Notes under the pieces: model-generated | Database searches by the model: none | Seen by the model: the letters and a program-made list of their open reading frames with translations, nothing else | Told to the model about the DNA's origin: nothing | Shown here: one piece after another, positions 17,526-45,370 of the stretch | Numbering within the stretch: the first letter of the stretch is position 1 | How the letters are laid out: each line of letters starts with the position of its first letter | Translations under genes and position numbers: made by a program | Assembly: GCF_000305935.1 (NCBI RefSeq) | Contig: NC_018870.1 | Location: forward strand, 1,195,942 to 1,259,941 | Direction of reading: 5' to 3' | Source of the DNA: Thermacetogenium phaeum DSM 12270 | GTDB taxonomy: Bacteria > Bacillota > DSM-12270 > Thermacetogeniales > Thermacetogeniaceae | DNA length: 64,000 nt

Positions 17526-19426
17526 AAGCCTTACGGTAATATGTCAAGATCCAAGGACCAAAATTTCTAAGAAAATTTTCTAAAAAAGCGCATACCAAAC
17601 TAAGCTTGTTTCCAGAGGTAAATGGAAAAAAGCAACATAAATGGTTCATCGGTTGAGAGACAATAGTCAGGTGGTGATATGAATGATGCTCCACGCACTG
17701 TAGCGTCTTATCCGTTGTGGTCTTTCGGGGTAAACCCTACTGGAGGGTCGATGCAATATTATGATATGAAGCCGTTGCTATTAGCAGAAGAGCCACCCGA
17801 CAGACTAAACCTAAACCACCTTTCTCTGCCCCTGGGGCACGTATAGTTGGTTGCTGCGTAGCAGAGCATCAACCACCCGCACGAGTTTACGTGCGGTCAG
17901 AACCAAAGCACGGCGATGGTGGTGAGTGGAACTCTATTTAAACTTACGGGCATAGAACTCGGCAAACCTGGGGTCCCATTTACGCACGCTGTCGGCGGCC
18001 ATTACAAAGTAATAGCGCAGGTACACGTTGCCGGTTTTCGTAAGCGGTGTGTCATCGGCTTCAAACTCGCCTGACTGGTGTTTCCGCCAGGTGAGGCCGG
18101 CAAACTTGGCGACTGCCTTCTCGTTGTCGAACCGGTGGATGTCGCCGATCTCGGCGATTATTCCGGCGGTACAGACAGGCCCCATGCCCGGCATCGACTG
18201 CAGAGTGTTCGGAAAGTGTGACAGTTCTTTCTCAATCGCCCTGTCAATACTCTTGACCTGCTGTTCCAGGGTGCGGATGGTCTGCAAACTGGTGGCCAGG
18301 ATCAGGTTCACCGGCTCCAGGAGGCTTCCGTGCAGCCTGTAAGCGCAGGCTGCGGCATGCTTTAAGGCCTTGGCCGTAGCTTCGGGGTTGGAGAAATGAC
18401 TCTTTCCCTTCTCCATCAGGAAATCAATTAACTCATCAAGCGGTCGTGCCGCAATCTCTTCCGGAGAAAGGAACTCGGTCAGGATCGCCTCCGAGGTGGC
18501 CCCGAAGATGTCGCTCAGCACCTTGTCCTGGCAGATGGTATTGAACTTCAGGAACAGGTTGGTCAGAAAATAGTTCTTCTCCCGGGTGATGGTCTGGATC
18601 AGGTGGTAACGGAACCTGGTCAGCCGCTGGAGGGGCAGGTAGCGGAAGTCCACCTGGCAGCTCTCGGGCAACCGTCCGAACCTGAGCCGGTCGGCGATCA
18701 CCAGGCAGTCGAACCAGTCATCCTTCGGGATATCGACGTACTGTTTTCTGAAGTTGGCGATCACCTTGGGATTGAAGACGTACACCTGGGGGTGAAAGGA
18801 AGCCAGCAAAGGCTCACCGGCCAGGCGCATCTGCAGGTGCCAGCCATAGACAGAGGTGGACTCCATGCCGATCCGCAGGGAATCAACTTCGTTGGCGCCG
18901 CAGATCTCCACCAGGTACTTAACAAAGGACTCTGCACCCGGATCGTCGTTCTTGCAGCGAATGCGCTTGGCGATCTCCTCGCCCTCTGCGTCAAACATCC
19001 GGGCCTTGAAATCTTTCATGCTGACATCGATACCGACAAACAGTTTCATCAGTTTCACCCCCTCCCAGGGAGGAATTGTGCGAGATTATGCGGGGTCCCA
19101 GGCACCATAACCGGTCAACAGCCTCGCCGGAAACAACGCTTTCCTGTCAGGACCTTGTTCTATCCAACCTGCTACCATTGGACAGGATCTTGACAAGTTG
19201 CGCAACTTACGTGTCAGGGGTACAGGTTATGGGCTGGGGGTCAGGCTTTCTAAGAGGTCGGACCTCAAGGAGTGACATACCTACCCAAAACATAATCTCA
19301 CGACTACATTTTGCCTGGAACTCCACCAAAAGTGAATACCCAATTTCCAGTTGTCAAGGAGCATCTTTGATCCAAGCCGGGCTTCTTTTAAGGGCTGGAT
19401 CAATTGGTGTTACAAAAACTATCTTA
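17526..19426 (-). mobile_element. IS110-family insertion sequence, copy C (about 1.9 kb)
   Basis: Defined by comparison with the inverted copy D (43507-45370): shared sequence begins at AAGCCTTACGG (17526) and ends at ACTATCTTA (19426). No inverted repeats, as usual for IS110. Long non-coding arms of about 370-400 bp lie on both sides of the transposase and contain hairpins (CCGCACG/CGTGCGG downstream; GAGGTC/GACCTC and AAGTTGCGCAACTT upstream), where the guide (bridge/seek) RNA should be encoded. Relative to copy D it carries an extra AT-rich block of about 33 bp near 17550-17583. It is inserted just upstream of the DUF2922 ribosome-binding site. Confidence 0.85.
17934..19049 (-). CDS. IS110-family transposase (copy C)
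   Basis: 371 residues from ATG 19049 (a GTG three codons earlier overlaps the GGGAGGGGG ribosome site and is less likely). The N-terminal DEDD domain shows LFVGIDVSMKDFKARMFDAE, IGMESTSVYGWHL and DWFDCLVIADRLRFG. The C-terminal Transposase_20 domain shows LQSMPGMGPVCTAGIIAEIG, then FAGLTWRKHQSG. Full length and uninterrupted, differing from copy D by a very few residues (for example PVNLILA versus PLNLILA). Activity would need the guide RNA from one of the flanking arms. Confidence 0.93.
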   Translation of the reverse strand: MKLFVGIDVSMKDFKARMFDAEGEEIAKRIRCKNDDPGAESFVKYLVEICGANEVDSLRIGMESTSVYGWHLQMRLAGEPLLASFHPQVYVFNPKVIANFRKQYVDIPKDDWFDCLVIADRLRFGRLPESCQVDFRYLPLQRLTRFRYHLIQTITREKNYFLTNLFLKFNTICQDKVLSDIFGATSEAILTEFLSPEEIAARPLDELIDFLMEKGKSHFSNPEATAKALKHAAACAYRLHGSLLEPVNLILATSLQTIRTLEQQVKSIDRAIEKELSHFPNTLQSMPGMGPVCTAGIIAEIGDIHRFDNEKAVAKFAGLTWRKHQSGEFEADDTPLTKTGNVYLRYYFVMAADSVRKWDPRFAEFYARKFK

Positions 19427-19452
19427 CGAGGAGTGAAGGAGGTGAGCCAAGA

Positions 19453-19677
19453 GTGATCAGCAAGACTTTGGAGTTGATATTCACAACCGCCGGGGGAGGC
19501 CGGCTGCGGCTCTCCGTGCCCGATCCGCGCCTGGACCTTACCGCAGAGCAGGTGAGCGCCGCCATGAGCACAATTGCGGCCAAGAACATCTTCACCTCTG
19601 GGACGGGGGGCATTGCCGGCATCCTCAGCGCCCGCATCGTCACCAGGGAGACAACGGATCTCATCTCAGTCTCATAA
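19453..19677 (+). CDS. DUF2922 family protein
   Basis: 74 residues from GTG 19453, six bases after GGAGGTGAG. It matches DUF2922: KTLELIFTTAGGGRLRLSVP, LTAEQVSAAMSTIAAKNIF and ARIVTRETTDLISVS. The family normally follows DUF1659 directly; here the IS110 copy C lies between them and ends about 25 bases before this start, leaving the ribosome site intact but cutting any promoter upstream of DUF1659. YvrJ follows at 19779. Confidence 0.85.
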   Translation: MISKTLELIFTTAGGGRLRLSVPDPRLDLTAEQVSAAMSTIAAKNIFTSGTGGIAGILSARIVTRETTDLISVS

Positions 19678-19778
19678 CCAGTCGGCGGAGCCCTTTGGGG
19701 GCAGGCGCGGCGGAAGCAGTGGGGTGGGCAGTGCCCATCCATTTTTCATCTTGAGGAGCGAAGAGAGGGAGTGAAGCA

Positions 19779-19964
19779 GTGGAAGAGATCTTCAAGCTCA
19801 TCGCCAACTACGGCTTTCCGATGGTCGTTGCCGGCTACCTTCTGGTCAGGCTGGAGCCTATCCTGAAGGAGTTCCAGAAGTCGGTGACAGTCCTGACGAT
19901 CGTCGTGGCCAGGCAGAACGGGGCAGACTATGAGGAAGCCCGCAAAATGGTCTTCGGAGAGTGA
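19779..19964 (+). CDS. YvrJ family small membrane protein
   Basis: 61 residues, matching the YvrJ family: MEEIFKLIANYGFPMVVAGY, then LLVRLEPILKEFQKSV and an acidic end. One predicted membrane helix near the N-terminus (about 5-25), holin-like in size but without known function. Start GTG/ATG region preceded by GAGGGAGTGA. Third member of the DUF1659-DUF2922-YvrJ set and followed by an amidase gene, an arrangement that recalls a small lysis or cell-wall module. Confidence 0.8.
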   Translation: MEEIFKLIANYGFPMVVAGYLLVRLEPILKEFQKSVTVLTIVVARQNGADYEEARKMVFGE

Positions 19965-20244
19965 CGGTGGAGGCGCTCTTCCCCGCAGGTGATTCCCGCC
20001 TGGGCGGCGCCGAATGCCCCACTTTACAGGGAGCGGCTCAGCGGTGCCGCACCGGCTTACCTCAGAGTGTGGCAGCCGCCGGCAGGGAGGAGGCGGCAAA
20101 GCCGCAGGCGGTCTGTCTTCATCCAGTGGGGAACTGAAGCTGCTGCCCGGTTGTCAGAGGAGGCCCGGGATTTCCGGCGGCATCATCTCGTCATCAGAGT
20201 GAGAATTCCCATTTTGCGCGGCATAAAAGCGGGGAGGGATCGCT

Positions 20245-20871
20245 GTGAACTGGTCTTATGTGATCGTCCACCACACTGGGGCGGAGGAGAGGGATGCGGA
20301 GCAGGTGCGCCGCTACCACCTCTCTTTAGGGTGGCGCGACATCGGCTACAACTTTGTGATCGAACGGGACGGGAAGGTTGCTCCCGGCAGGAGCCTCGAT
20401 CTGCCCGGTGCCCACTGCCGGGCTGACGGGATGAACTCCAAGGGGATCGGAGTGGCGGTGATCGGCAACCTGGAGAGCCACCCGCCCCTGCCCGGGCAGG
20501 CTGCGTCTTTATTGGAACTGCTGGCCGACCTCTGCAGGCGCTTCGGCATCCAGCCGGACCAGCTCCTCGGCCACCGCGAGGTGAGGGGCGCGGCCACCGA
20601 CTGCCCGGGCAGATACCTGGACATGGAGGGAGTGCGGCGGGAGCTGGCTGAGCGCCTGGCGTCAGAGGAAAAGGTTGCCTACCAGACCCCGCCCTCCCAG
20701 GATGGTGAGATACCCACACATCAGGCGTAGCCGCCCTCAGGTCTCTGGCGCGTTCAGGCCGGTGCCTTCGCCACCAAAGAAAAGGCCGAGGCTTTGGCCG
20801 AAAGGCTTTGGGCAGCTGGCTTCGAGGCCTGGGTCGTCCCGCCTAGGGCCGCCTCAAGGGAGGAAGCCTGA
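20245..20871 (+). pseudogene. N-acetylmuramoyl-L-alanine amidase with SPOR domain, split by in-frame TAG
   Basis: The first 161 residues are a PGRP/amidase_2 enzyme that cuts the peptide from peptidoglycan: SYVIVHHTGAEERDAEQVRR (zinc His), IGYNFVIERDGKV, HCRADGMNSKGIGVAVIGN, LGHREVRGAATDCPGRYL (second His and Cys). GTG start after GGGAGGGATC. A TAG at 20728-20730 ends this frame, but the very same frame continues with LWRVQAGAFATKEKAEALAE and FEAWVVPP to TGA at 20871, a normal SPOR domain that would anchor the enzyme to denuded glycan. So one nonsense codon separates the catalytic and binding domains. The shortened amidase may still be active. Confidence 0.85.
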
Positions 20872-21157
20872 GGGCTCATCCTTTCCTTTAGCGCCCCGTT
20901 TGCCGGGAGGGGAGGGGTGGAGCAGCCCTGCTTCTGTGCCTCATCCTGTGCCGTGTGGTGGCTTCCGACAGGAAAATTTTTTCTACAGCGAAGCATAAAA
21001 AGAAAGGAGATTTCATAGAATGGAAGCTCTCGTGTGAGGGGTGGCTTTATGGGTCAGGTTAGGCTTGAGGTACTTGTCTGGGCGCTGGTCGTGAAAGCGG
21101 CCTTAAGGTGACTTTTTGGAACCAGGAAAATCAAATCAATTCATGGGTGGTGAAAAA

Positions 21158-21839
21158 ATGCCTTTTTCGCCGTTCAATGCCAACGATTTTGCTTTGATGC
21201 AGCAGGTAAGAGAGGGGCAACTGCTCCCTCAGCCGCTGGCAGAGCAAGATAGAGGATTTGCGAAGAGATTTGTGCTCGTTCCCGGAGTACGACCTGGAGT
21301 TCTTCCGCAAGAGAATCGTGCGCCGGAGTATGCGAGGGGATAAGGGCATGGTTTTTGGACCGCCGCGCACCCACGACGAGCATTGGTTTTTGTACACGGT
21401 CGGCGGCGGGGATCAAGACGAGGTGCAGTTAAACATAGGAATGTATCCGGAGTACATCCGCGTTGGCCTCGGCTTTCAGATAGGGCGCCAGGTTGCACCG
21501 AAGATTCCCGCGTTCCGGGTGTTTCAGACTTTCCTAGGGGTCCGGCCACCTCTTCCGTTCCGCGCTGCTTTTTACTACTGCGTTGCGCGAAATGGTTTTG
21601 GCATAGAAATACAAGGGGATCCTAAGAAAGTGGGGCCAGATGATGTCTTGCGCTACCTCGAGACCTATGTTGTTCCAGCGGACGGTTCGCCAGTTTTTGT
21701 GTTTGTGGGGGCACTGTGGGACGTGCAGGAAGCAGCGAACAAGACCATCGATGCCTACCGAGAAGTGTTTCTAGAGCTTATGCCGTTTTACGAGGAACTC
21801 CTGCTTGCTGGGGGGCGCTATGTTTTCTATTCTTCTTAA
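21158..21839 (+). pseudogene. Unknown protein, one-base frameshift
   Basis: ATG 21158 begins MPFSPFNANDFALMQQVREG and runs to PLAEQ, where an extra G (GCAAGATAGAG, about 21249) shifts the frame. The second frame continues IEDLRRDLCSFPEYDLEF, then GMVFGPPRTHDEHWFLYTVG, VQLNIGMYPEYIRVGLGFQI and a C-terminus ending GGRYVFYSS (TAA 21839). The joined product would be about 226 residues. I do not recognise the family with confidence; the beta-rich central block resembles N-terminal DNA-sensing domains of some restriction proteins, which is only an impression. Single-base lesion or sequencing error. Confidence 0.6.
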
Positions 21840-22463
21840 GCATTCTTGAGGAGTAGACGGTGCAGCTGTTTGTCTATGAGGGAACGGTAAGGAAGCGAAG
21901 CAGTACGTGCCCGGGAGACGGGGCTAGTTACTTAGTGAAGAACTCTAAAGTAGTAACTATGAGTTTCACTGGTGATGAGTTTCGCTAGTGGAATGAAGCT
22001 GGAAGGAATTTTTTACTATCTGGCGAAGGATTACATTTAGGGTGATGCAATTGGCCCAGTTTTTGCACATACTGCCAGAAGAAGGGAGAAACCCAATACC
22101 TTCAAGCGGGTGATGCAGTTGCTCCAGCTTTTGCGCCCACCCCTGGCCGGTTAGGAGTTCTTAGTGTCTCCGGCTCTCCCGGGGTCAAAATAGGGATGTA
22201 TACCAGTTGATAGGGGGTAGACTGGTAGAGAAGCGCGACACACTGTATTGCTGTGGAACCACGACCCCCCTAGATTAAACAGACACTGCGACCAGTGGCA
22301 GTGTTTTTCTTTTTTGGAGGGCGCCCTACAGGAAAATGTTGCATTCTGGCGAATAGTTCAAAAAGTACCAATTTTCTTGGCTGGTTATCCAGCCGAGGAA
22401 AACGCAGCTTAAACCTAATTGATGGGCCCGTGGCCCAGATTCGGAATGTAAGGGGAGGAACCA
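21840..22463 (+). other. Gene-poor stretch with direct repeats and a terminator; possible ncRNA
   Basis: Contains a 42-codon frame from GTG 21859 (behind GAGGAG) to about 21987, too short to call. Two imperfect 30-base direct repeats beginning GGTGATGCA start at 22041 and 22109 (23 of 30 positions identical). An intrinsic terminator at 22283 is not preceded by any gene on that strand for 440 bases. This combination suggests an untranslated transcript, but I see no known RNA family. Confidence 0.4.
22283..22314 (+). terminator. Rho-independent terminator
   Basis: 7-bp stem ACACTGC/GCAGTGT, eight-base loop, followed by TTTTTCTTTTTT. It ends transcription arriving from 21840-22280. Confidence 0.75.
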
Positions 22464-23240
22464 GTGGTGAAAAAGAAACCTTGGTTTATACTTCTAGCGG
22501 TTTTGGTTCTCTTGGGAGGCGCTTCGCTCTTCAGGTGGGAGAGAACATCGACGAAGAAAGAAGGGGATTTGGATGTAACCTATGCTCGCGATCGCTGGAC
22601 GGGAAGTAAGTGGATTATTTTAAGCGGGAGCGAAGATGACAAAGTTTACGTCAACGAAAGGATACCATATCTTGCTTCTAACCTTGTTAGAGCAAGGCAG
22701 CAGGATGTTTTAAAACGCCCGGAGTTCCAGAAGAGAATATCTGAGGTGGAGGAAAAGAAAAAAGCTGTTAGCACTAAAGCAGAAGCTCTGGGAGAGGCGC
22801 ACGATAGCTATGAGGAATTAGCCGAGGCGTGTAAAAAAGATTGGGAACGAGAAAATCCGCCAACAAGTGAGAAGTATTTTGATACTCTTTTTGAATGGGC
22901 GGAACTTTTATGGTCACCATCTACTTCTGTTGGTCCGCCACTACCTATTCCCTTAGATTCAGATAACGATGCCATTACTTTCTTAAAATCGCATATTCCA
23001 CTTGAGCTAATCCAGGCTGAAAATGAGTACAGAGAATATTATATGGATCTTTGGAAGTTAAAAGAGGAAGAGGATGCAATAAAAGAGAAAGCGCAGTCAA
23101 CTGCAGAAAGAGAACTCGCTCGCGAAATACAGCGAAAGAGCAACATTGCTACTTGTGCTTGGGCGTGTCTCCTTGTCTTGGTTGCTGGTTCTGCACTTTA
23201 CCTTTATTTAAAAGATATTAAAAGTTCGGCTTTGGCTTAG
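22464..23240 (+). CDS. Membrane-anchored coiled-coil protein, unknown
   Basis: 258 residues from GTG 22464 after AGGGGAGGAA. A short basic start leads to a membrane helix (about 6-24, WFILLAVLVLLGGASLF), then a long charged external or cytoplasmic region with coiled-coil stretches (EFQKRISEVEEKKKAVSTKA and KLKEEEDAIKEKAQSTAE) and a second membrane helix near the C-terminus (about 230-248, WACLLVLVAGSALYLYL). No family recognised. Codon use is more AT-rich than the flanking genes, suggesting a separate origin. It stands alone between the terminator and an intron remnant. Confidence 0.7.
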   Translation: MVKKKPWFILLAVLVLLGGASLFRWERTSTKKEGDLDVTYARDRWTGSKWIILSGSEDDKVYVNERIPYLASNLVRARQQDVLKRPEFQKRISEVEEKKKAVSTKAEALGEAHDSYEELAEACKKDWERENPPTSEKYFDTLFEWAELLWSPSTSVGPPLPIPLDSDNDAITFLKSHIPLELIQAENEYREYYMDLWKLKEEEDAIKEKAQSTAERELAREIQRKSNIATCAWACLLVLVAGSALYLYLKDIKSSALA

Positions 23241-23562
23241 AAAACTAGGATTTTTTGGGATGCTTGGAAAAAGGGGCTTTTGTCAGGCATTTGTGTTTAG
23301 AGGGTTAAGGTAAGTTTTTCTGCTTAAAGCTTTTAACCTCTCAAAATGGTAATGGCTAAATTCTCCATAGTTAACTCAAAATTAGTTCAGCATTTGCTTT
23401 TAGTTAAGGGAAGACGAGGGTATCACCTAGAGAGTAAATCCCTGTATTTTCGAGCAGAATATGACAGGCTGCCAGTCGCACGACATTGGACGGTGTTGAA
23501 AATACCCTCGCCCCTTTGGGGGACGGAAACGCGTAAACCTGACCGATTGGGCAGCTTTCTCC

Positions 23563-23890
23563 ACGCGCCCGGCATGGGCGTTAACCTGGTGGTGAAAGTC
23601 CGCTGCAGGCGAGCCAGCACGTGTCTGCTAGCCGAAGGCAAGGGTGTTCATCGCGAGGTGGGATCTGGTGAGGCCGATGAGTTCGCGGGAAGAGCGGATA
23701 GAGCAGAAGACCTCGGGAGGAGCTTGCCTGCGGGAGGAAGTGGTGAAGCCACAGGGGATTTCAGGAGGGCTGAGCTCCGGGTGCCCTTAGGTCGCGGCAC
23801 GAGGCGGGGCGGCACCTGGCGGAGACAAGGCAACGCCCTGATAGGCCCTGATGAGCTTCACAAACGCTGCTATAGGCTTCGTCAAGCTTG
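23563..23890 (+). ncRNA. Truncated group II intron, domain I remnant
   Basis: Shows the hallmark 5' region of bacterial group II introns: GCGCCCGGCATGGGCG, then GGTGGTGAAAGTCC, GCCGAAGGCAAGGGTGTTC and CATCGCGAGGTGG in the expected order and spacing. The first two intron bases, normally GT, read AC here. The remnant breaks off after about 330 bases; no RT gene, domain V or domain VI follows before the helicase gene at 24137. It is a different intron type from the one at 1-974. Confidence 0.8.
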
Positions 23891-24136
23891 GTGAACCGCC
23901 GGACAATGTGACTTTATTAACTTGTGGTGCTAATTGCAGGAATTAGAACTTTCAGTTGGGAGGAAAATTGACAAAGTTTGGCGAAAACAATCAAAAGAAA
24001 TCGCTGCCAGGATTTTATTGCAGGGGTTCCAGTCCGATCCGCATCATCAGCGTTGGCGAAACACAGCTCAATGGTGCTAAAACACTTTTGAAGGGTTCAT
24101 ATTTGGGCGTGGTAAAGAAAGGGACAATTCTTTGAT
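23891..24136 (+). other. Leader region of the defence operon
   Basis: About 245 bases without a convincing gene. The sequence is more AT-rich than its surroundings and ends in GAAAGGGACAATTC before the helicase start. No clear -35/-10 pair or terminator seen; the operon promoter may lie here or have been displaced by the intron insertion. Confidence 0.35.
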
Positions 24137-27100
24137 ATGCACGAGGGCGTTGACTGGGAGATGGTTTTTGAAACTGGGGACATAATTAGCGGCCCAATCT
24201 TCCCCGAACCTGTCAGGGTGCTTGCTGTCAGGCCTATTGGGCCGGCGCTTACCAAAATAGAGGCTGTCGGCGTTAACTCGAAGAAATACTATGACCCTGT
24301 CCTGAGCCCCGCTGAACTTGCTGCCATTACCAAAACCACTGAACAATCTACTGAGTTTACGGGTAACGCCGAGCACGTGTTTCTTTACTTAGAGGGGATG
24401 CGGATCCGCAATGCCTTTCAGTTTGATCCCCTCTATGGGGTGAGCGTTTCGCAGGTCGATGCCCTGCCGCACCAGATTGAGGCAGTCTACCATTACATGC
24501 TCAAGAGCCCCAATATTCGCTTTTTGCTGGCTGATGACCCGGGTGCCGGCAAGACCGTTATGGCCGGGCTCCTTTTAAAGGAATTGAAATACCGGGGTCT
24601 GGTCAATCGGGTTCTGATTATTGTACCCGGGCACCTCAAAGAGCAGTGGCTTAGGGAAATGAAGGAAAAATTCCAGGAACGCTTTTTGATCGTCGACCGC
24701 GGTGTCATCAACGCCAGTTGGGGGCAGAACGTCTGGACAGAGAATCATCAAATCATTACTTCCCTGGATTTCGCCAAACAGGATGACGTCATGTTTGCGC
24801 TGAAAGACTCCTCCTGGGACCTGGTGATTGTAGACGAAGCCCACAAGATGTCCGCTTATAAGTACGGGGAAAAGATCAATAAAACCGCTCGCTATCAATT
24901 CGGCGAGCTGATCTCCCGGATCACCAAATACCTTATTTTCCTCACCGCAACTCCGCACCGTGGCGATCCGGAAAACTTCCGCCTTTTCCTGGATCTTCTG
25001 CAACCCGGATTTTTCGCCAACACCAGAATGCTGGCTGACTCCATTCAAAATAAGGACAACCCGCTTTTTTTGCGGCGGCTCAAAGAAGACCTTAAAGGTT
25101 TTGACGGCAGGCCGCTGTTCCCCCAACGCAAGGTAGAGACGGTGAAGTATCGGCTGAGCGATGCCGAAAAGATCCTCTACAATGCCGTCACCGATTATGT
25201 GGAGAAAAATTTCAACAAAGCCATACAAAAGGAGAAGCGCAACGTCGCTTTTGCCCTCACCATCCTGCAGCGCAGGCTGGCATCCAGCGTCAGGGCTGTG
25301 CGCAAGTCTTTAGAGCGCCGCCGTGCCAGGCTGGAGGACCTGTATAAAAAGGGGCAGCTGCTTCAGGAAGTGGGTTATACGGAAGAATACCTGGAAGACC
25401 TGGAGGAGAGCCAGCGTTGGCAGAAAGAGGAAGAGCTGCTGGAGAAGCTCACATCGGCGGAAACGCTGGAGGAGCTGAGGGAAGAGATCAACAAGCTGGA
25501 CGAGCTTGTGGCTCTTGCCAGGGAAGTGGAGAAGCAGGAGATCGAGACCAAACTCAGCCGGCTCAAGGAAGTACTTGACGATATCAAGGTGCGGGAAAGC
25601 GGCACCAAAATCCTCATTTTCACGGAGTCCAAGGATACGCTGGACTATCTAGCAGAAAAGCTCAGGAAATGGGGATATGCGGTGACAACCGTCCATGGCG
25701 GAATGAACATGGATGCCCGCATCAGGGCCGAGCATGAGTTCAAGCACAATGCCCAGGTGATGGTGGCGACCGAAGCGGCAGGCGAGGGGATCAACCTCCA
25801 GTTCTGCTGGTTGCTGATCAATTACGACATCCCCTGGAACCCCAACCGCCTGGAACAAAGGATGGGGCGCGTCCACCGCTACGGTCAACGTCACGATGTG
25901 CATATTTACAACATGGTGGCGGTGGATACCAGGGAAGGGAGGATCCTGGAAAAGCTCTTTGAGAAGCTGAACCGCATGAAAGATCACCTGGGCTCCGACC
26001 GTGTTTTCGATGTCATCGGCGACATCCTGCCGGGGACGAGCCTTAAAGACCTGATTCTTGAGGCCATTGCCAATCCCCAGAGCACGGACGATATCGTGGC
26101 AGAGATGGAACGCATCCCTGATGAGGAGGTAGCCCAGCGGGTCAGGGAGGCGACGATGGAGGCGTTGGCCACCCGTCATATCGACCTCTCCCGGATCCTT
26201 GGCGAGCAGCGGGTCGCCCGTGAGAACCGCCTGGTGCCGGAATATATTGAAAAGTTTTTTCTGCGGGCGGCCCAAACGCTCGGGATCAGAGTAGAAAAAC
26301 GCCAGGATGGCTTCTGGCGGGTGCCAGCAGTTCCTTTTGAGGTGCGAAATCAGCCCTACGAATTCAAAATTAAGTACGGCGAGGTATATCGGGAGTACCT
26401 GAAGGTTGCTTTTGATAAGCAACAGGCCTCTGATGGGCAATGCGAGTTTGTCACGATGGGCCATCCCTTGATGGAGGCCGTTTTGGAAGCCATCTTTAAG
26501 AAGTACCGGGATGATGCTTCCCGCGGCGCAATTTTTATCGATCCCGATGGCAGGAAGAACGGGCTGTTGTGGTTTATGACCGGGGAGATCAAGGACGGGA
26601 GAGGAGAGGTAGCCGGCCGCAAGCTTTTTTGCATTTACCAGCCTGCCGATGGCCGGATGACTGCTGTCAATCCCTCTCTGCTCTGGGACCTGAAACCGGC
26701 TGGTGATGACTCACCTGAGCCGGAAGCAGAGGTTTTGCCCGCCTCACGGGAGAAAGTTGTCGCCTTTGCTTTAGAGCAGCTGGTGCTTCCGTACCGTGAA
26801 GAGTTGCTGGAGCAGAGGAGGCGGGATGCCGCCATCAAGGAAAAATATGGCCTTAAATCCATCGATTTGCTGATCCTGGAATCGGAGACCAAGCTCATGG
26901 AGTATGAAACTAGGAGGATTAAAGGAGAAAACATCCCTGATGTCACGGTCATCCAGGAACAGCGGAGACGGGAGGACCTGGACCGGAAAAAGGAGCGGCT
27001 TCTGGGCGAGATCCGCACCCAGACCAGCCTGTATTCTTCCGAACCGTCTGTCCTGGCCGTGGTCCGGGTGGTGCCGGGAGTTTCTCTGCAGGAAGGGATG

Positions 27101-27481: not shown

Positions 27482-27518
27482 CACAGGTATAAACTGGTAG
27501 CAAGGGAGATGGCAGAAG

Positions 27519-30209: not shown

Positions 30210-30279
30210 AGTTTTGATGCCTGTTCTGAATTTACCTCTGTTAGGGGGATAAATATCTGATTTTAAGGAGGGCGCGTCT

Positions 30280-33009: not shown

Positions 33010-33035
33010 GATGTAACCCGGTGAAGAAAAAAATT

Positions 33036-33451: not shown

Positions 33452-33453
33452 CA

Positions 33454-34730: not shown

Positions 34731-34934
34731 TAGTGCAAATTAAAGTATGGCCAATTTAAAGGTAATATCTATGACATCGTGGTGCCTGTAAAGGTATATG
34801 CAGTTCAACGGCTGCGCCTGATGCCGGGAAGCCGCGCCGGATCAAATGGTGGCCGCCAGGGAAGTGCGAGTATTTCAGCCCCAGTTGTGAGTGCTAAGCT
34901 GGTTTCAATTGAGTGTAGAAATTGAAAAGGCGTG

Positions 34935-35996: not shown

Positions 35997-36740
35997 ACAC
36001 CAGAAAGATGCTATAGCATTCTGCCAAGCAGGCAGGATGGCGGTGGGTGACGCCTGCTCCTCAATTGCATGCCTCTGGGGCGGGCCGCAGGCCTCGCGCG
36101 CTGGCGCCGCGCCATGCCGCCCCCGCAGGGCTGTCGGTGGCCGCCACTGCTGTTCTTTAGACGCAGCATCCGTGTGGTTCAGCGCCGCGCCCAACGAGCA
36201 TCCGGCAGCTGGCGTGCCCGGTACTCCCGGCGTGTCTTCCGCTCACCTCGGTCATTTCCTTCGTTTTGCTCACTCCGGCCGTTCTGCATCCAGTTCCTCC
36301 ACTAGGCTGCCGACCCACATTTATCGCCGAATCCAGCACCTGCAGGGATACTTTTCTCTCCGGCAATCTGCAGGAGCTGTCTCCGGCTCCCGAACGCCTG
36401 CGGCTGATCTGTCCCTGAACTATCCTCCTCAGGCTTGTATCAGTTGAGTGAGTGGAAAGCGGTGTGACGGCTGCCGCCGTCAGGCCTGCCGCTGCGCCCG
36501 CGCTCGGATGGCACCCGCCAACCCGCCTCCTCCTCTCTCATTGTACGGGGGGAGCCCCGCCCGTGGTCAAGGCACGCTCCAGCGGGCGGGCTCCCTCCAT
36601 ACCGTACCGTAACCTCCGCCCGCCCGCTTCCGCTCTTGCCGGCACTTGGGCAGAGAGGCGGCTGCTGATGATTGGTGCCGGGTTCAGCCTTGACTCCGGG
36701 CACCCCCCCGTTCCCCGAAGCAAAAAAGGAGGCGTTTCTC
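35997..36740. other. GC-rich stretch without a supported gene
   Basis: No reading frame here resembles a protein on either strand, although several are open because of the high GC. It contains one copy (36589-36620) of a 32-base sequence found again at 39959-39990. The stretch ends in the leader (AAAAAAGGAGG) of the SWIM gene. Confidence 0.4.
36589..36620 (+). repeat. 32-bp island repeat, copy 1
   Basis: Starts GGCTCCCTCCATACCGTAC and ends CCTCCGCC. It matches 39959-39990 with two mismatches. Each copy lies roughly 120-150 bases before a gene start (36741 and 40137). Confidence 0.65.
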
Positions 36741-36743
36741 ATG

Positions 36744-36749
36744 TTGGAG
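36744..36749 (+). repeat. Target-site duplication (TTGGAG) of IS1634-type copy B, left
   Basis: TTGGAG directly before the CCGCCACTCCGC end; the same hexamer follows the other end at 38659-38664. It falls within codons 2-3 of the SWIM gene. Confidence 0.92.
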
Positions 36750-38658: not shown

Positions 38659-38664
38659 TTGGAG
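38659..38664 (+). repeat. Target-site duplication (TTGGAG) of IS1634-type copy B, right
   Basis: Second TTGGAG, directly after AGTATCGG at the IS end. Confidence 0.92.
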
Positions 38665-39013
38665 AGTCTGGTTGGTCTGTTGGCTACGGTGGACGGGCGG
38701 CGCATCGGCCGTGCGGTGGATGGTATCGCTCAGGGGTACTACCGGGTGCAGGTGGTGAAAGTGGATGAGGAGCACGGCCTCGTCACCGCCTACGTCCTGG
38801 CGTTCAATGACGGGCAGTTCACCACTGAGTACTGCGTGGACACTCGGGACGGATGGCTTCGCCTGGTGCAGCTGCCGGGACTTCATCGTTGGCGGCCACA
38901 GGTGTAAGCACATGGCGGTGCTGGCTCTCTCGCTCATGCGGGAGGACGCTCTCAGGGCAGCGGAAGCGCAGGCCAGCGAGTTGGAGCAGCGGCGCAGCCG
39001 CAAGAGGCGTGCG

Positions 39014-39037
39014 GCGGGGTAAGCCCCGCTTTTTTTT
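39014..39037 (+). terminator. Rho-independent terminator after the SWIM gene
   Basis: 6-bp GC stem GCGGGG/CCCCGC with loop TAAG that includes the stop codon, followed by eight Ts. Confidence 0.88.
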
Positions 39038-40136
39038 GGTCGGCGCTTCAGCGCTTTGAACTAACGTGGGTGTATCAGACGGCGCAAGGCCCTTGCTCCG
39101 TGCCCCGTCCGCCCACCCGTCTTCAGCGGCATTCAGCTGGCCAACTGGCGGTTGGTGCGACTTCTGCCGAAGAGCAGTGCTGTTGAGGAGCTTGAGGCGA
39201 TTGACCCATCCCTGCTGGCTGCCGGTTTCCGGCCTCCGCAGACTGTGGGTGGGTATTCTGGGTAAGCATGTTTCGCAGCCCGCCGCACAGACTGCTCCGG
39301 CCACCGGCAGCGCCAGGCCTCCGCAGACCTGCGGTAAAGCCTTCCTTCTCAGGGTGCCGCAGGACTGCTCCGGCCTGGCTCCAAGTGAGCAGCTTCCCAC
39401 CCGGTGCTGTCTCCTCATCACAGCCCTTCCAACCCTGCCCGCCCACCCGGCAGCCGAGCCCTTGCCCTCCCGCCCAACTGCCGCGGCCTGGGGCACCCTT
39501 CTCCTCCAGCCCTCCCCAATCATCCCTCTTCAAGCCTACTCATCCAGAAAGAGCCGCAGGGGGAGGGCCGCCGCATCCCCACCCAGCCCTGCTTATCCAG
39601 CGGCTACCCCACTCATCAGGAATTATCTGCAGATCCGCAGCTGCAGGGCGCCTACCCCAAAGCAGCAGTGTATGCTTACCACCCCAGCCGCCAGGTCAGC
39701 TTCTCCTGCTGGCTGGACGCTGGGGGTTGGAGAAGGGGAGCATCATGCCCGGCAGTGCCAGTCATCCTTTGGGGTGCGGGCATCATGCTCCCCAGAAGCA
39801 AAAGAAGCAGCGGAAGGGGCTGCAGAGCGTCGCCTCTCCCCAGTGGTTTTTCCCTGATGGGCTTCCGCACTGCAGCCCCATTGGAAAAGTTTATCCCTTT
39901 CGGCACCACCATTCTACGCTGCGCGGCGGGCTCCTGCTGTCAATGGCCGGGCGCCGCCGGCTCCCTCCATACCGTACTGTACCCTCCGCCAGACGGCGCC
40001 CTCTCCGCTGCGCTCCGCCCTTGACAGCGCCCTTGCTCCGCTGAATGGTTACCGGTGCCCGAAAGGGAATAACGGGCGGGAGGCTTGCAGCAGGGATGCA
40101 TGCCTTCGCAAAAAATCTCAAAAGGAGGGCTTTCAG
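39038..40136. other. GC-rich 1.1-kb stretch, probably decayed coding sequence
   Basis: No intact gene. One plus-strand frame at about 39132-39267 (QLANWRLVRLLPKSSAVEEL, ending GFRPPQTVGGYSG) looks like a real protein fragment but has no recognisable start. Long open frames elsewhere are Pro/Ser/Arg-rich in every phase and look like GC artefacts. The 32-bp repeat copy 2 is at 39959-39990. Confidence 0.4.
39959..39990 (+). repeat. 32-bp island repeat, copy 2
   Basis: Two mismatches to 36589-36620; located about 150 bases before the start of the gene at 40137. Confidence 0.65.
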
Positions 40137-40901
40137 ATGTCAGATGCTGTGGGTGTTGTCAGGGAGTTAGTGGAGAGGGCACGCCGCCTGCCGGCGGAGA
40201 TCGAGGGGATGGTGCTGGTGCTTGCCGACAAGAAGCAGGCGCTGCACGACCTGGTCCAGGTGAAGGCTCAGATCGAGGCCAGCCTGGCTGGTGAGGTGGC
40301 GAGCGAAGTGGACGAGGCCGGCCGCAAGCGCTACCCCAACGAAGAATCGAGGAAGGCAGAGATCGCCAGGCGGCTCCAGGAAAACCGGGAGTATCAGGAG
40401 ACGGAGCAGATGCTGCGGGATATCCGCCAGGAGTGCATCGAGCTGGAAGCCAAGCTCGACCGGGCACGCTACGAGCACAGGGCGGCTACTACCCTGCTGT
40501 ACCTGGTGGCCAGCGGAGTCCAGGGCAGCAACCAGGCGGTGGTCGAGGCGGTGTTGGGCGTATGCGCCGCAGATGCTGCTCAGGATGCGGCCAGGGAAGA
40601 AAAGATGCAGAATTTCGTCAACTGCCTGCAGACCGGTGAGGTCCCGCACGAGAGTGATCAGCAAAAGGGATCCAGGCAGGCGAAGGGCGATTACCGGGAG
40701 GCACGGGTCACTGTCCTGGAGGCACGGCCGGGCAAAAGCGAGAATGTGATCAGGGCCTACTGCGAGACCGGCGACGGCGAAAGGGGGGCGGTCTACGGTA
40801 AAAACGGCACCGGCAGGAAGCTGGCCGCCCTGGTCGGCCAGGAGATCACCGTCAAGTTTCGGGAAGGCAATTACGGCTGGTTTGCGGTGGCGGTAAAGTA
40901 A
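40137..40901 (+). CDS. Coiled-coil island protein, unknown
   Basis: 254 residues from ATG 40137, preceded by AAAAGGAGGG. Residues 1-120 are helical and charged (VRELVERARRLPAEIEGMVL, RRLQENREYQETEQMLRDI, IELEAKLDRARYEHRAATTL), as in small proteins encoded beside phage recombination genes. The C-terminal 75 residues (EARVTVLEARPGKSENVIRA, then KLAALVGQEITVKFREGNYG) look like a small beta-barrel, possibly nucleic-acid binding. No named family. High GC like the surrounding island. A 22-bp perfect palindrome follows at once. Confidence 0.7.
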   Translation: MSDAVGVVRELVERARRLPAEIEGMVLVLADKKQALHDLVQVKAQIEASLAGEVASEVDEAGRKRYPNEESRKAEIARRLQENREYQETEQMLRDIRQECIELEAKLDRARYEHRAATTLLYLVASGVQGSNQAVVEAVLGVCAADAAQDAAREEKMQNFVNCLQTGEVPHESDQQKGSRQAKGDYREARVTVLEARPGKSENVIRAYCETGDGERGAVYGKNGTGRKLAALVGQEITVKFREGNYGWFAVAVK

Positions 40902-40905
40902 GAGA

Positions 40906-40927
40906 GGCCTGGGGTTAACCCCAGGCC
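40906..40927. terminator. Perfect palindrome, likely terminator hairpin
   Basis: GGCCTGGGG TTAA CCCCAGGCC: nine perfect pairs and a four-base loop, five bases after the stop codon of the coiled-coil gene. No T-run follows on the plus strand, so it may act as an RNA-stabilising hairpin or protein site. Confidence 0.5.
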
Positions 40928-41527
40928 GATCTCGGGAGCGGGTCCGGAGGTGGAAAATCGCCCGCTCTTATTTTCTTCTTTTCGCCGCCGGGAAGAAAAG
41001 TCCTCTTTGCAAAAAGAAAAGTTTATCTTCTGGTACCGGCAGGCGCCGCCCCGCCCACCCGCCAGCATTATCTGCTTCCGCCGGGGGAGGCCTGCCCAGG
41101 CTCGCACCTGCCCACCCGCCGCCCGGGCAGATCTTTTTTATTGCGGGTCAAGGTAATTCCGCCTGTTATTTCGCCAACGTCACCCTCACCTCCGACCGGA
41201 TTTTCTTTTTGAACACCTGAAGGGGTTCACCTAGCCACCGGGAAGAGCGGGATGCTCGAGGTGCCGCCCGGGGCGGGCCGGCTCGTTCCCCCGGAGCCCG
41301 GGGCGGTGCAGGCCAGAAGCCGGGCGAGGGAGAGGATGAGGACTTCTTCGTCGGCGCAAGTCATAAGGTCGTGGGACTTCAGCTCCGGAGTTTCCGGCTA
41401 GTTCTTTTACCTCTATTTTTTTACGACATTTGCCCATCAGCTGGGAGCGGTGGACCGGAAGCGGCCCGCCGGGCTCCTGGGTGGGCGATCCCGCGTTTTT
41501 TCGGCCCTTTATCTTTTTCTCTTCGTC
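40928..41527. other. GC-rich stretch without a supported gene
   Basis: 600 bases between the palindrome and the convergent ankyrin gene. Fragments of plausible coding sequence (for example FANVTLTSDRIFFLNT near 41170-41217) end quickly in stops. No RNA gene or repeat recognised. Confidence 0.35.
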
Positions 41528-42862
41528 CTACTGCTGTTCCAGTCTCGAAGTGACTTCAGCGTACAGGTTCCTCAGTTCGTTCAGGCACCTCTCTAATGGC
41601 TCTAAGGCCAACCTTTCATCGTTATCTATTTTTTGTAGACGGATTTGCTTCTCTGATTCGATTTGCTCGTAAAGCGGCGCGTAGGCTTCTTCTATCTTCT
41701 TTCTTTCGTACTCAACAAGGGGAGAAGAGCCCAGCCCGCGCGAGAGGGCGGACTTGACGGCGGCGTTGACAGCGGCTGTTTCCTGTCTCTTTAGGTTCTC
41801 GACAGATGCATTGTATGCGCTTTCGACTAAATTGCGCTGGTACTGGTACTCGCTCTTTACTTTTTGGATCTTTTGCTCCACGTCACTTATCGAAAGTTCC
41901 AGCTCTCTTTTAAGCTTCTCCAGCTCCATTCTCTCCTTAGCAGTCAGCCGGGGGACGCCAGTTACCGGCTGGAGCAACCTTATTACTTCCGTGTTCTCCT
42001 TACCTTCGGCGTATCTCAGTGCTGTATACCCGCTCTTGTCCCGGATGTTGGGGTCTGCTCCTGCTTTCAGCAGTGCTTCGACCACCGCCTTGTGGCCGTT
42101 GGCAGCGGCCAGTATCAGTGCCGTTACACCGAATTTGTCGTCTCTAATGTTAGGGTCGGCCCCTGCACTCAAGAGAGCATTAACTACTTCGATGTTGCCC
42201 GTTCCTGATGCCACTGCAAGGGGGGTAGCACTGGTTTCACCAAAATCGCTTTTGATGTTCGGGTCGGCGCCGCTTTCAAGCAGAAGTTTTACTATGCTCG
42301 TGTTGTTGTTGCTGACTGCAAGCATTAGAGCTGTTATGCCTTGCACTTGAGCATTTGGATCTGCCCCGCTTTCAAGAAATACCCTTACCATCACTTCGTT
42401 GTTGTCCTTTACGAACTGTAACAACCATCCGTTAAGTCTTTCAACGTCGACGATATCGACCGTTCGGCTAGCCTCGTCCCACTTAACCCTGCAGTTCAAG
42501 GTTTCGGCAACGAAGCGGAGCGGCACCATCAACCGCCCTCCTACTATTTGGGAGGGCACGTCCAATGCTACCGGCAGGTTGTTCTTCATGGCTTTGCCGC
42601 CTACTTTCAGCTTGAGTTGGAGTTCGCCTTTTGTTATGGTCGCCGTTTTTGTCGCACCATCCCACGCCACATCGGCGCCCAGCGCCTCTGCTACAAACCG
42701 GATGGGAACCACCGTCCGCCCGTTGATTATCTGCGGCGGCACGCTGGAATGAACTTCCTGACCGTTAACACAAAGGCGAATGGGGTTTGAAGCACTGGCA
42801 GGAGCTGACCCGCTGGTAGCTAGGACGGCAACCAGTGCAACTAAAACAAAAGCCTTTCTCAT
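41528..42862 (-). CDS. Secreted copper-amine-oxidase-stalk protein with ankyrin repeats
   Basis: 444 residues from ATG 42862, eight bases after AGGAGGG; an upstream in-frame ATG lacks a ribosome site. A signal peptide (MRKAFVLVALVAVLATSGSA) is followed by a stalk domain of the copper amine oxidase N1 type (VNGQEVHSSVPPQIINGRTV, VPIRFVAEALGADVAWDG, LMVPLRFVAETLNCRVKWDE), then four ankyrin repeats (about 165-300; VRVFLESGADPNAQVQGITA and GHKAVVEALLKAGADPNIRD) and a C-terminal coiled coil (about 320-444). The stalk module is common on surface proteins of Clostridia. Pairing it with ankyrins on the outside of a Firmicute is unusual; the ligand is unknown. Confidence 0.88.
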   Translation of the reverse strand: MRKAFVLVALVAVLATSGSAPASASNPIRLCVNGQEVHSSVPPQIINGRTVVPIRFVAEALGADVAWDGATKTATITKGELQLKLKVGGKAMKNNLPVALDVPSQIVGGRLMVPLRFVAETLNCRVKWDEASRTVDIVDVERLNGWLLQFVKDNNEVMVRVFLESGADPNAQVQGITALMLAVSNNNTSIVKLLLESGADPNIKSDFGETSATPLAVASGTGNIEVVNALLSAGADPNIRDDKFGVTALILAAANGHKAVVEALLKAGADPNIRDKSGYTALRYAEGKENTEVIRLLQPVTGVPRLTAKERMELEKLKRELELSISDVEQKIQKVKSEYQYQRNLVESAYNASVENLKRQETAAVNAAVKSALSRGLGSSPLVEYERKKIEEAYAPLYEQIESEKQIRLQKIDNDERLALEPLERCLNELRNLYAEVTSRLEQQ

Positions 42863-43104
42863 AATATCCCTCCTAAGGCAGGATTCAAAGGAAAAATGTT
42901 GCCCCACGGGATTGCGTAGACTTTAAGACCCCATGGGGTTTCTAAGGCTGGGCCTGTTTAACCGGCTGCCTCCAGGGGCTTGGTTGCAGGCGCTCTCTTT
43001 GTTTAAGGCCGGTCGTCGATCGGACTGCAAGGTTGCGGGGGTTGGCAAAGCTAAGCGAGGTGTTATGGAGGGACCTACCTGCAGCAGGTTTCAGTGCCTG
43101 TATC

Positions 43105-43488
43105 TTAGTAGTCCAGCCAACTATTAAAGGTGTAACTGGGATAGCTTTGGAGGTAGGAACGCCCAGAGTATAGTCTGCTGTCGAGCGAAGGAAAGGCTGA
43201 ATAGGAATAGCTGGGCCAGTAAGAAGAGTAGAACCAGGAGTAGCTGCGGTAGTAGGAAGAGCTGGGCCACCTTTTCGTCCCCGCCTTGCCGGTGTAAGGG
43301 TTGTAGTTTCCGTAGGTACTCCAGTTATTCCAGAAGTTGCCGTCAGGATAGCTCCGGTAGTGGGGGGCAACATAAGTGCCGTCTTTTCTAAAGTAGCCGC
43401 GCACGTACACTGCTGCGCCCGCCGTGCTCGAGAGGGCAAAAGCCAGGAGCAGCATGAGTGCCAGGGTGAAGATGATCCTCCTGTTCAT
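43105..43488 (-). CDS. Small secreted Tyr/Ser-rich protein
   Basis: 127 residues from ATG 43488 (GAGGTGAG eight bases upstream). A signal peptide (MNRRIIFTLALMLLLAFA ... TAGA) precedes the conserved block VRGYFRKDGTYVAPHYRSYP and NYNPYTGKAGTK, seen in many small bacterial secreted proteins of unknown function. The C-terminal half is mainly Ser, Tyr and Trp (SSYYRSYSWFYSSYWPSYS). Lies next to the ankyrin stalk gene on the same strand. IS110 copy D is inserted immediately before its ribosome-binding site, probably cutting it from its promoter. Confidence 0.72.
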   Translation of the reverse strand: MNRRIIFTLALMLLLAFALSSTAGAAVYVRGYFRKDGTYVAPHYRSYPDGNFWNNWSTYGNYNPYTGKAGTKRWPSSSYYRSYSWFYSSYWPSYSYSAFPSLDSRLYSGRSYLQSYPSYTFNSWLDY

Positions 43489-43506
43489 TACCATCTCACC
43501 TCCTCG

Positions 43507-45370
43507 TTAAGATAGTTTTTGTAACACCAATTGATCCAGCCCTTAAAAGAAGCCCGGCTTGGATCAAAAATGCTCCTTGACAACTGGAAATTGGGTATTC
43601 ACTTTTGGCGGTGTTCCAGGCAAAATGTAGTCGTGAGATTATGTTCTGGGTAGGTGTTGTCCTCCTTGAGGTCCGACCTCTTAGAAAGCCTGACCCCCAG
43701 CCCATAACCTGTACCCCTGACGCGTAAGTTGCGCAACTTGTCAAGATCCTGTCCAATGGTAGCAGGTTGGATAGAACAAGGTCCTGACAGGAAAGCGTTG
43801 TTTCCGGCGAGGCTGTTGACCGGTTATGGTGCCTGGGACCCCGCATAATCTCGCACAATTCCTCCCTGGGAGGGGGTGAAACTGATGAAACTGTTTGTCG
43901 GTATCGATGTCAGCATGAAAGATTTCAAGGCCCGGATGTTCGACGCAGAGGGCGAGGAGATCGCCAAGCGCATTCGCTGCAAGAACGACGATCCGGGTGC
44001 AGAGTCCTTTGTTAAGTACCTGGTGGAGATCTGCGGCGCCAACGAAGTTGATTCCCTGCGGATCGGCATGGAGTCCACCTCTGTCTATGGCTGGCACCTG
44101 CAGATGCGCCTGGCCGGTGAGCCTTTGCTGGCTTCCTTTCACCCCCAGGTGTACGTCTTCAATCCCAAGGTGATCGCCAACTTCAGAAAACAGTACGTCG
44201 ATATCCCGAAGGATGACTGGTTCGACTGCCTGGTGATCGCCGACCGGCTCAGGTTCGGACGGCTGCCCGAGAGCTGCCAGGTGGACTTCCGCTACCTGCC
44301 CCTCCAGCGGCTGACCAGGTTCCGTTACCACCTGATCCAGACCATCACCCGGGAGAAGAACTATTTTCTGACCAACCTGTTCCTGAAGTTCAATACCATC
44401 TGCCAGGACAAGGTGCTGAGCGACATCTTCGGGGCCACCTCGGAGGCGATCCTGACCGAGTTCCTTTCTCCGGAAGAGATTGCGGCACGACCGCTTGATG
44501 AGTTGATTGACTTCCTGATGGAGAAGGGGAAGAGTCATTTCTCCAATCCCGAAGCTACGGCCAAGGCCTTAAAGCATGCCGCAGCCTGCGCTTACAGGCT
44601 GCACGGAAGCCTCCTGGAGCCGCTGAACCTGATCCTGGCCACCAGTTTGCAGACCATCCGTACCCTGGAACAGCAGGTCAAGAGTATTGACAAGGCAATT
44701 GAGAAAGAACTGTCACACTTTCCGAACACTCTGCAGTCGATGCCGGGCATGGGGCCTGTCTGTACCGCCGGAATAATCGCCGAGATCGGCGACATCCACC
44801 GGTTCGACAACGAGAAGGCAGTCGCCAAGTTTGCCGGCCTCACCTGGCGGAAACACCAGTCAGGCGAGTTTGAAGCCGATGACACACCGCTTACGAAAAC
44901 CGGCAACGTGTACCTGCGCTATTACTTTGTAATGGCCGCCGACAGCGTGCGTAAATGGGACCCCAGGTTTGCCGAGTTCTATGCCCGTAAGTTTAAATAG
45001 AGTTCCACTCACCACCATCGCCGTGCTTTGGTTCTGACCGCACGTAAACTCGTGCGGGTGGTTGATGCTCTGCTACGCAGCAACCAACTATACGTGCCCC
45101 AGGGGCAGAGAAAGGTGGTTTAGGTTTAGTCTGTCGGGTGGCTCTTCTGCTAATAGCAACGCTTCATAATACCGTATCGACCGTCCAGTAGGGTTTATCC
45201 CGAAAGACCACAACGGATAAGACGCTACAGTGCGTGGAGCATTATTCATATCACCCACCTGACTATTGTCTCTCAATCGATGAACCATTTATGTTGCTTT
45301 TTTCCATTTACCTCTGGAAACAAGCTTAGTTTGGTATGCGCTTGGATCTTGACATATTACCGTAAGGCTT
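43507..45370 (+). mobile_element. IS110-family insertion sequence, copy D (about 1.86 kb)
   Basis: Inverted copy of the element at 17526-19426; identity ends at AAGATAG (43509) and GTAAGGCTT (45370). The left non-coding arm (43507-43884) and right arm (45001-45370) each carry hairpins. Relative to copy C the substitutions are clustered at 43610-43615, 43647-43665 and 45160-45184 and nearly absent elsewhere. Inserted beside ACCTCCTCG, the complement of a ribosome-binding site. Confidence 0.87.
43885..45000 (+). CDS. IS110-family transposase (copy D)
   Basis: 371 residues, intact, essentially identical to copy C. DEDD residues lie in FVGIDVSMKD, GMESTSVYG and DDWFDCLVIAD; the C-terminal Transposase_20 domain carries SMPGMGPVCTAGIIAEIGDI and the serine-containing AADSVRKWD region. 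ATG 43885 after GGGAGGGGGTG. Two identical full-length copies in inverted orientation 26 kb apart could also recombine and invert 19427-43506. Confidence 0.93.
   Translation: MKLFVGIDVSMKDFKARMFDAEGEEIAKRIRCKNDDPGAESFVKYLVEICGANEVDSLRIGMESTSVYGWHLQMRLAGEPLLASFHPQVYVFNPKVIANFRKQYVDIPKDDWFDCLVIADRLRFGRLPESCQVDFRYLPLQRLTRFRYHLIQTITREKNYFLTNLFLKFNTICQDKVLSDIFGATSEAILTEFLSPEEIAARPLDELIDFLMEKGKSHFSNPEATAKALKHAAACAYRLHGSLLEPLNLILATSLQTIRTLEQQVKSIDKAIEKELSHFPNTLQSMPGMGPVCTAGIIAEIGDIHRFDNEKAVAKFAGLTWRKHQSGEFEADDTPLTKTGNVYLRYYFVMAADSVRKWDPRFAEFYARKFK

Follow-up and report, generated by a model that had tools for sequence, protein, structure and literature searches.

RNA-guided target choice has been described for IS621, an element with a DEDD recombinase (domains PF01548 and PF02371), a bridge RNA encoded in a long left end, a left and a right target guide (LTG and RTG) that both include the core, likewise CT, and a promoter across the junction of the circular form (available passages of PMC11208160). 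For the IS110-type elements ISEc21 and ISMch6, an upstream non-coding RNA (seekRNA) matches both target strands; ISEc21 targets a conserved segment within some transposase genes of the IS3 family, and ISMch6 was redirected in nature through altered guide letters (available passages of PMC11187229). Here, we analyse a stretch of 64,000 nucleotides from Thermacetogenium phaeum DSM 12270 (NC_018870.1, positions 1,195,942 to 1,259,941; hereafter the window), which carries two nearly identical copies, C and D, of an IS110-group element. We consider it highly probable (roughly 0.9) that both copies encode a bridge RNA in their left end, that the guides of its target-binding loop match the insertion sites, and that C has been retargeted naturally. 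The mechanism of bridge-RNA guided IS110 transposition is known; what the present sequences add is one apparently retargeted copy and a clade whose predicted guides are mostly aimed at Shine-Dalgarno sequences.

All features listed for IS621 have a found or predicted counterpart in the present element, and the D protein as well as an intact copy contain PF01548 (DEDD recombinase domain) and PF02371 (C-terminal) above the curated cut-off. Compared with the parts of PMC11208160 that describe IS621, the recombinase is longer (approximately 414 amino acids when intact), the loop sequences are different, the predicted target is the complement of a Shine-Dalgarno sequence, and inspection by eye brought up no right donor guide. 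The upstream RNA with a predicted match to both target strands is shared with ISEc21 and ISMch6, and the redirection through altered guide letters with ISMch6. While the latter is 72% identical to the ISEc21 transposase according to the passages at hand of PMC11187229, the guides reported here differ among copies of the same genome that are 98-99% identical.

A genome search revealed eight copies of the element in the 2.94-Mb genome, namely C and D in the window and G650, G1967, G1992, G2440, G2514 and G2644, named by their position in kb; the other copies show 98-99% DNA identity to D. Its ends were derived from G2440, which sits before another IS110-type gene that also occurs without the insertion, in the window (L003) and at a second locus (L005). 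Comparison of the empty site, CAAAGATCCTC-CT-TTAGCGG, with the filled one (left junction GATCCTC-CT-CGTAAGATAG, right junction CCGTAAGG-CT-TTAGCGG) sets the core to CT, lets the left end start with CGTAAG and the right end close with CCGTAAGG. The ends of the remaining copies were placed by analogy. On the evidence of this one uninterrupted site, which is seen in three places, and one filled site, insertion occurs at a dinucleotide core with no target duplication beyond it. The string GGCTTT at the right junction was dropped as target or end, as the uninterrupted site shows the target starting at CT; likewise, the trailing CG of the D flank quoted in the original prediction, a model's reading of the sequence, belongs to the element and not to the flank. 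The target of G2440 is the ribosome-binding site of the different IS110-type gene (window 49645-50862), of which the genome holds three copies (L003, L004, L005). Relative to the other copies, D has one additional base at the left end (43505-43515) and lacks 33 right-arm columns near 45342.

The four short strings and both right-arm intervals on which the original prediction was built are all present where it had placed them, and the two clusters of differences between C and D that it described are real. In an alignment of the eight genomic copies (1,904 columns, with G1967 omitted over its inverted right end), 22 columns are unique to C. Counting from the left end, eight of them fall into columns 104-156 of the left arm and eleven into columns 1656-1702 of the right arm, with three elsewhere, so that both clusters are far from evenly spread. 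C and D have six letters in common that are absent from the other copies (G1967 not counted). One of these changes creates a TAG stop codon that shortens the transposase of both copies to 374 residues, while the six other copies have longer open frames.

The left cluster covers the predicted LTG. The standard guide TGTCCTC is present in seven genomic copies, in one of them (G2644, L018) with a one-base deletion within the guide and yet at a standard-type site, a deletion that may have arisen after insertion; C alone has GTCACTC. As had been claimed, the C cluster resembles its own left flank: guide GTCACTC and site TTCACTC agree in six of seven letters, and this flank is absent from the other seven copies. 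The match at D had been called short; the shared letters exist, and the match is longer once the core is included and then reads CCTCCTT in the guide as well as in the inferred site of D. By itself, the agreement between C and its flank is modest evidence, and the weight is carried by a comparison of 31 insertions.

This set comprises the eight own copies and 23 insertions of relatives in eight further genomes and a viral contig, with recombinases 66-71% identical, and falls into 12 guide types; left target, right target and loop were read for each insertion. Genomes matching at the threshold numbered 22 of 199, 8 of 398, 1 of 20, 5 of 82, 1 of 3, 1 of 4 and 1 of 4 in overlapping sets, and the relatives were sampled from part of the matches found. 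The viral contigs and a named genome collection contributed one relative each. Plasmids hold only relatives below 60% identity, which occur at 44-48% on 17 of 72,556 records (Priestia and other Bacillales; E up to 1e-90). L135 was merged with L062 as one record, the letters in the compared stretches being identical; L082, with no left end in reach, was excluded, and L083 and L095-L102 were left out of the statistics (L095-L096 were compared once elsewhere).

Standard guides stand at sites such as CGTCCTC and AGTCCTC. The G170 guide TTCACTC occurs at ten sites, nine of which end in ACTC, the G103 guide TTCCCCC at the site TTCCCCC, and the G432 guide TCCGCTC at AACGCTC. Over positions -1 to -5, the mean number of matching letters is 4.518, compared to 3.574 with permuted guides, and 1 of 50,000 permutations reaches or exceeds the observed mean. 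For windows of four, five, six and seven positions, 11, 1, 1 and 7 of 50,000 permutations reach the observed agreement (G2644, with its deleted guide, is an own type in this test and is pooled with the standard type in both position scans). At position -4, where A, C and G all occur, the guide equals the site in 27 of 31 insertions. The loop-flank covariation for which the original prediction proposed to test further copies is present. An unbiased scan of 162 positions in a 180-nt left-arm stretch with 11 guide types also ranks the predicted position first (z = 4.39), with the runners-up at z = 2.09 on the same strand and 2.27 on the opposite strand.

Could the likeness of left arm and flank be accidental, and the Shine-Dalgarno-like sites be found by protein contacts alone? 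The new letters of C agree with its site at -4, -5 and -6 and not at -7, which is modest for C taken alone, and CTC precedes the core in 30 of 31 sites, so that a fixed preference accounts for part of the match. However, permutation among types preserves such shared letters, and still the observed agreement is reached only 1 to 11 times in 50,000; in L067, C replaces T at -2 in the guide and in the site; and the signal peaks at one of 162 positions. We regard chance as hardly credible. As the insertions are separate events, common descent of the guides alone does not produce agreement with the flanks. Differences in the Shine-Dalgarno consensus among hosts could add some agreement between genomes, and none within the present one.

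A more serious alternative is that C inserted with another guide and was patched later, by recombination with a diverged copy or by mutation, its flank match being accidental or selected. This is compatible with the confinement of the C-unique changes to two patches. Moreover, at column 24 of the structure alignment (A1), C has the letter of nine relatives and D stands alone, so that part of the patch looks ancestral, and the six letters found in C and D only, including the stop, mark their transposase parts as close kin. The patch is not simply ancestral, though, since the roles are reversed at column 61 of A1, where D shares the letter of the relatives and C is the only one to differ. In addition, the C guide matches its own flank in six of seven letters and the other own flanks in at most four of seven (by eye), and guide-site agreement recurs in other families. 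Overall, we judge a later patch unlikely, while giving it more weight than any other rival account of these copies, and favour insertion of C under the guide it now carries.

The predicted guides are embedded in a plausible RNA structure. A target-binding loop is predicted at 43646-43700, upstream of the recombinase gene in the left end, and comprises an outer (CTGGG/CCCAG) and a terminal (GAGG/CCTC) stem. Unguided application of RNAalifold to 11 left arms places the variable block in the internal loop between these two helices, in which 100% of the cells are paired in the 11 sequences and one outer pair occurs as GC, CG, UG and UA. For all six helices, 95.3% of the cells are paired, a value reached by none of 500 shuffles; none attains the observed count of doubly changed cells or the covariation score either, with the caveat that related sequences are able to beat such shuffles without structure. 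Further 3', a candidate left donor guide CGTAAG, CGTAGG or CGAAGG tracks the right end of the respective element (GTAAGG, GTAGGT, GAAGGA). When right end, core and left end are joined, three of the four element types examined show TTGACA and, 17 nt further on, TAAGAT, TATCAT or TATAAT; in D, the distance to TAAGAT is 18 nt. The predicted promoter spans the circle junction, in line with the description of the family. No consensus match to an outward left-end promoter towards the adjacent gene was found within 43490-43900. A comparison with guide-RNA models, proposed earlier, gave nothing: the window contains no guide-RNA family of Rfam at the gathering threshold, where only part of a group II intron (RF02003, domains D1-D4, at 809-947 on the minus strand) and a tRNA are reported.

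On the right side, the predicted RTG and the right target (RT) agree less strongly than guide and site on the left. With ten types, the observed value is reached by 55-83 of 20,000 permutations; the match covers 8 of 8 letters in L063 and six contiguous letters in L134, L070 and L076. G1967 (G000:C1:1967517-1969418; L021, L022) contributes no right-target value, owing to a terminal inversion of its right arm between the right end at CT and an inner CTTTCT on the opposite strand; the right end now precedes CTTTCTC. The inner CTTTCT agrees with the prediction from the standard right guide (CTTTCTAA), and both breakpoints lie at CT; in total, this string occurs four times over the two strands of the 1,899-bp G2514 element, one occurrence being the guide itself, and the left match at the inversion is poor (3 of 7 by eye). 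The inversion fits a recombination at the core that would be guided by the same RNA, the alternative being breakage by other means.

Several results weigh against a bridge RNA with target guides. As few as four of seven left-guide letters match in six insertions (G1967, G2644, L062, L065, L066, L134), and position -4 is mismatched in four (G1967, G2644, L062, L136). The scan for the right guide peaks at the predicted place, hardly above the next of 165 positions (2.65 versus 2.60), and agreement with the right guide extends over just two to three letters, including the core, in D (CTT only) and in two G069 copies. The agreement of the donor guide is based on three forms, in addition to the missing right donor guide mentioned above. 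The pairing was tested on the very alignment that had yielded the structure; pairs with changes on both sides are at least as numerous in 53 of 500 shuffles, and further pair types in 52 of 500, and the left arm of D alone folds no more stably than shuffled sequences (z = -0.96).

The original prediction had interpreted both clusters as reprogrammed target loops. For the left-arm block this interpretation is supported by the guide-site agreement and the scan peak; for the right-arm block it is not supported. This block differs in sequence and length among otherwise near-identical copies and changed in C along with the left guide, which might suggest a second guide or a piece of a split bridge RNA. 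Two further observations point in this direction: 12 letters of the D block resemble the right terminus of three relatives (91.7%), and one of eight left-right pairings favours matched copies by approximately 4.5 kcal/mol. The other seven combinations show no advantage of matched copies, and the longest string shared by the block with its own flanks (3-7 nt) is the same as with the flanks of other copies (3-7 nt; 7 copies). The block folds no better than shuffled sequences (z = -0.64), and its best Rfam score is 13.8 bits compared to a threshold of 55. The right arms of eight relatives match the present element over the last 16-18 nt and short stretches only; no counterpart of the block was found there beyond such stretches, although these relatives share the guide-target agreement. 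A guiding role of this block is therefore very improbable. A guide RNA in the right end, as typical of the IS1111 group, was not found: the guide signal lies on the left and the block contains none, the whole right arm not having been scanned. The idea that the block preserves a reading frame on the opposite strand was discarded since the length differences, judged by eye, are not multiples of three. The joint change of right arm and guide in C may reflect an exchange of two tracts with an unseen diverged copy, a guess on which the evidence of columns 24 and 61 is divided.

From a biological point of view, the sites point to ribosome-binding sites. On the other strand, core and left target read AGGAG plus one letter in 30 of 31 insertions and AGGGGG in L067. 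We asked for a start codon 2-12 nt past these six letters and a frame of no fewer than 40 codons (or of 40 up to the edge of the available stretch). This rule is passed by 23 of 31 insertions, with the gene on the other strand; C, G1992, G2514, L063, L064, L062, L136 and L117 fail. For the insertions that pass, the gene is located to the left and reads away from the element (only this direction was examined), and its Shine-Dalgarno letters remain next to it after insertion. Among control sites in the rest of the window, 41 of 204 AGGAG, 11 of 58 AGGAGG and 2 of 27 AGGAGT pass, as do 15 of 61 AGGAG sites in flanks and 14.5% of random positions. Longer motifs pass in 15 of 61 (AAGGAG) and 4 of 16 cases (AAAGGAG), and the counts for AAAGGAGG (2 of 3) and AAAGGAGGA (1 of 1) are too few for a judgement.

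The guides reflect the same motif. In all 12 types, CTT is preceded by CTC or CCC as the last letters of the guide (in G2644, the last two letters likewise), and the standard guide TGTCCTC with the following CTT reads CCTCCTT, which resembles the anti-Shine-Dalgarno end of the 16S rRNA. Of 17 insertions of distant relatives (42-49% identical), which were kept out of the guide-site statistics and include L077 despite its non-standard left end, 11 pass the rule, and CCTCCT is found in the left arm in five of six groups examined. The five copies of a distant relative in G103 (L086-L090) have CCTCCT sites and no CTCCT in the left arm, so that the guide there would be built or placed differently.

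It could be argued that the location merely reflects survival, insertions inside genes having been lost, irrespective of guide content. An insertion just upstream of a Shine-Dalgarno sequence spares the reading frame, and so few motif sites of the window precede a start codon (see the AGGAGG and AGGAG controls) that 23 of 31 may be more than the motif by itself accounts for; the longest motifs are too rare to tell. Survival alone, however, predicts intergenic DNA in general and not a Shine-Dalgarno motif, and it leaves aside the uniform ends of the 12 guide types and the CTCCT in the left arm of five of the six more distant groups. We therefore regard it as an unlikely explanation and prefer guide content.

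Older reports are said to have placed insertions of IS900, a mycobacterial member of the IS110 family, adjacent to ribosome-binding sites. Its published target motif CATGNNNNNNTCTCCTT, when reversed and complemented, corresponds in our reading to a Shine-Dalgarno sequence with a start codon behind it; the passages of PMC8141618 concerned give no guide. As this motif is of the same kind, targeting of the Shine-Dalgarno type is not unheard of. A literature search, judged mostly by titles and abstract openings and with subscription journals mostly outside its range, yielded no bridge RNA or seekRNA guide tied to a Shine-Dalgarno sequence, and the accessible parts of PMC7823733 and PMC3196728 contain nothing on such a link.

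The positions, ends, core, guide-site agreement and conserved stems were computed here, and from them we infer production of the RNA, its pairing with DNA, and a move of C by its own guide. In the proposed mechanism, the long left end would encode a bridge RNA whose loop between outer and terminal stems reads the target. The LTG on the 5' side of the loop would carry the letters of the left half-site and the core CT, and the RTG on the 3' side would be complementary to the core and the right half-site, while the candidate donor guide further 3' would repeat letters found in the right end of the same element. With this RNA, the DEDD recombinase would join the circular element into the target at CT. 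The standard guide TGTCCTC with CTT would direct the element to Shine-Dalgarno sequences, and GTCACTC would direct C to a site differing by one letter. Because the gene of C is truncated, the recombinase for its move would have come from an intact copy. The coordinates of all features are compiled in Table 1.

Table 1. Observed and predicted features of copies C and D, in positions of the window.
Feature	Position	Strand	Remark
IS110-group element, copy D	43505..45367	+	ends by analogy with the uninterrupted site of G2440
IS110-group element, copy C	17529..19428	-	ends by analogy with the uninterrupted site of G2440
Core CT, left junction of D	43503..43504	+	
Core CT, right junction of D	45368..45369	+	followed by right target TCCCC
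Core CT, left junction of C	19429..19430	-	
Core CT, right junction of C	17527..17528	-	followed by right target TTAAAGG
Left target at D, TCACCTC	43496..43502	+	
Left target at C, TTCACTC	19431..19437	-	
Empty version of the site occupied by G2440, CAAAGATCCTC-CT-TTAGCGG	49628..49647	-	precedes a different IS110-type gene
Predicted bridge-RNA region of D	43587..43766	+	in structure alignment
Predicted bridge-RNA region of C	19168..19347	-	in structure alignment
Predicted outer stem of target-binding loop, 5' side	43646..43650	+	pairs with 43696-43700
Predicted terminal stem of target-binding loop, 5' side	43668..43671	+	pairs with 43677-43680
Predicted LTG of D, TGTCCTC	43658..43664	+	43665-43666 would pair with the core
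Predicted LTG of C, GTCACTC	19270..19276	-	19268-19269 would pair with the core
Predicted RTG of D, TTAGAAAG	43681..43688	+	complementary to CTTTCTAA
Predicted RTG of C, TTAGAAAG	19246..19253	-	
Candidate left donor guide CGTAAG	43723..43728	+	letters as in right end CCGTAAGG
TTGACA in right end	45349..45354	+	17 nt (18 in D) from TAAGAT if the circle joins the left end
Right-arm variable block of D	45160..45184	+	not a guide on present evidence
Right-arm variable block of C	17741..17775	-	
Transposase gene of D	43876..45000	+	truncated by TAG at 44998-45000; intact copies elsewhere in the genome
Transposase gene of C	17934..19058	-	truncated at the same codon as D

Copies that are 98-99% identical and differ in a few guide letters represent a natural experiment on guide reprogramming within one genome, and the guide-target pairs with their tolerated mismatches are ready material for testing bridge recombinases. 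Beyond this, we tentatively propose, at slightly less than even odds, that the clade possesses a generalist guide: the bridge RNA would mimic the anti-Shine-Dalgarno end, thereby find many targets in any bacterial genome and keep the Shine-Dalgarno sequence in place, and copies such as C would shift to neighbouring motif variants by swapping short guide patches. If this is true, guides tuned to Shine-Dalgarno sequences explain how an RNA-guided element avoids exhausting its targets in new hosts.

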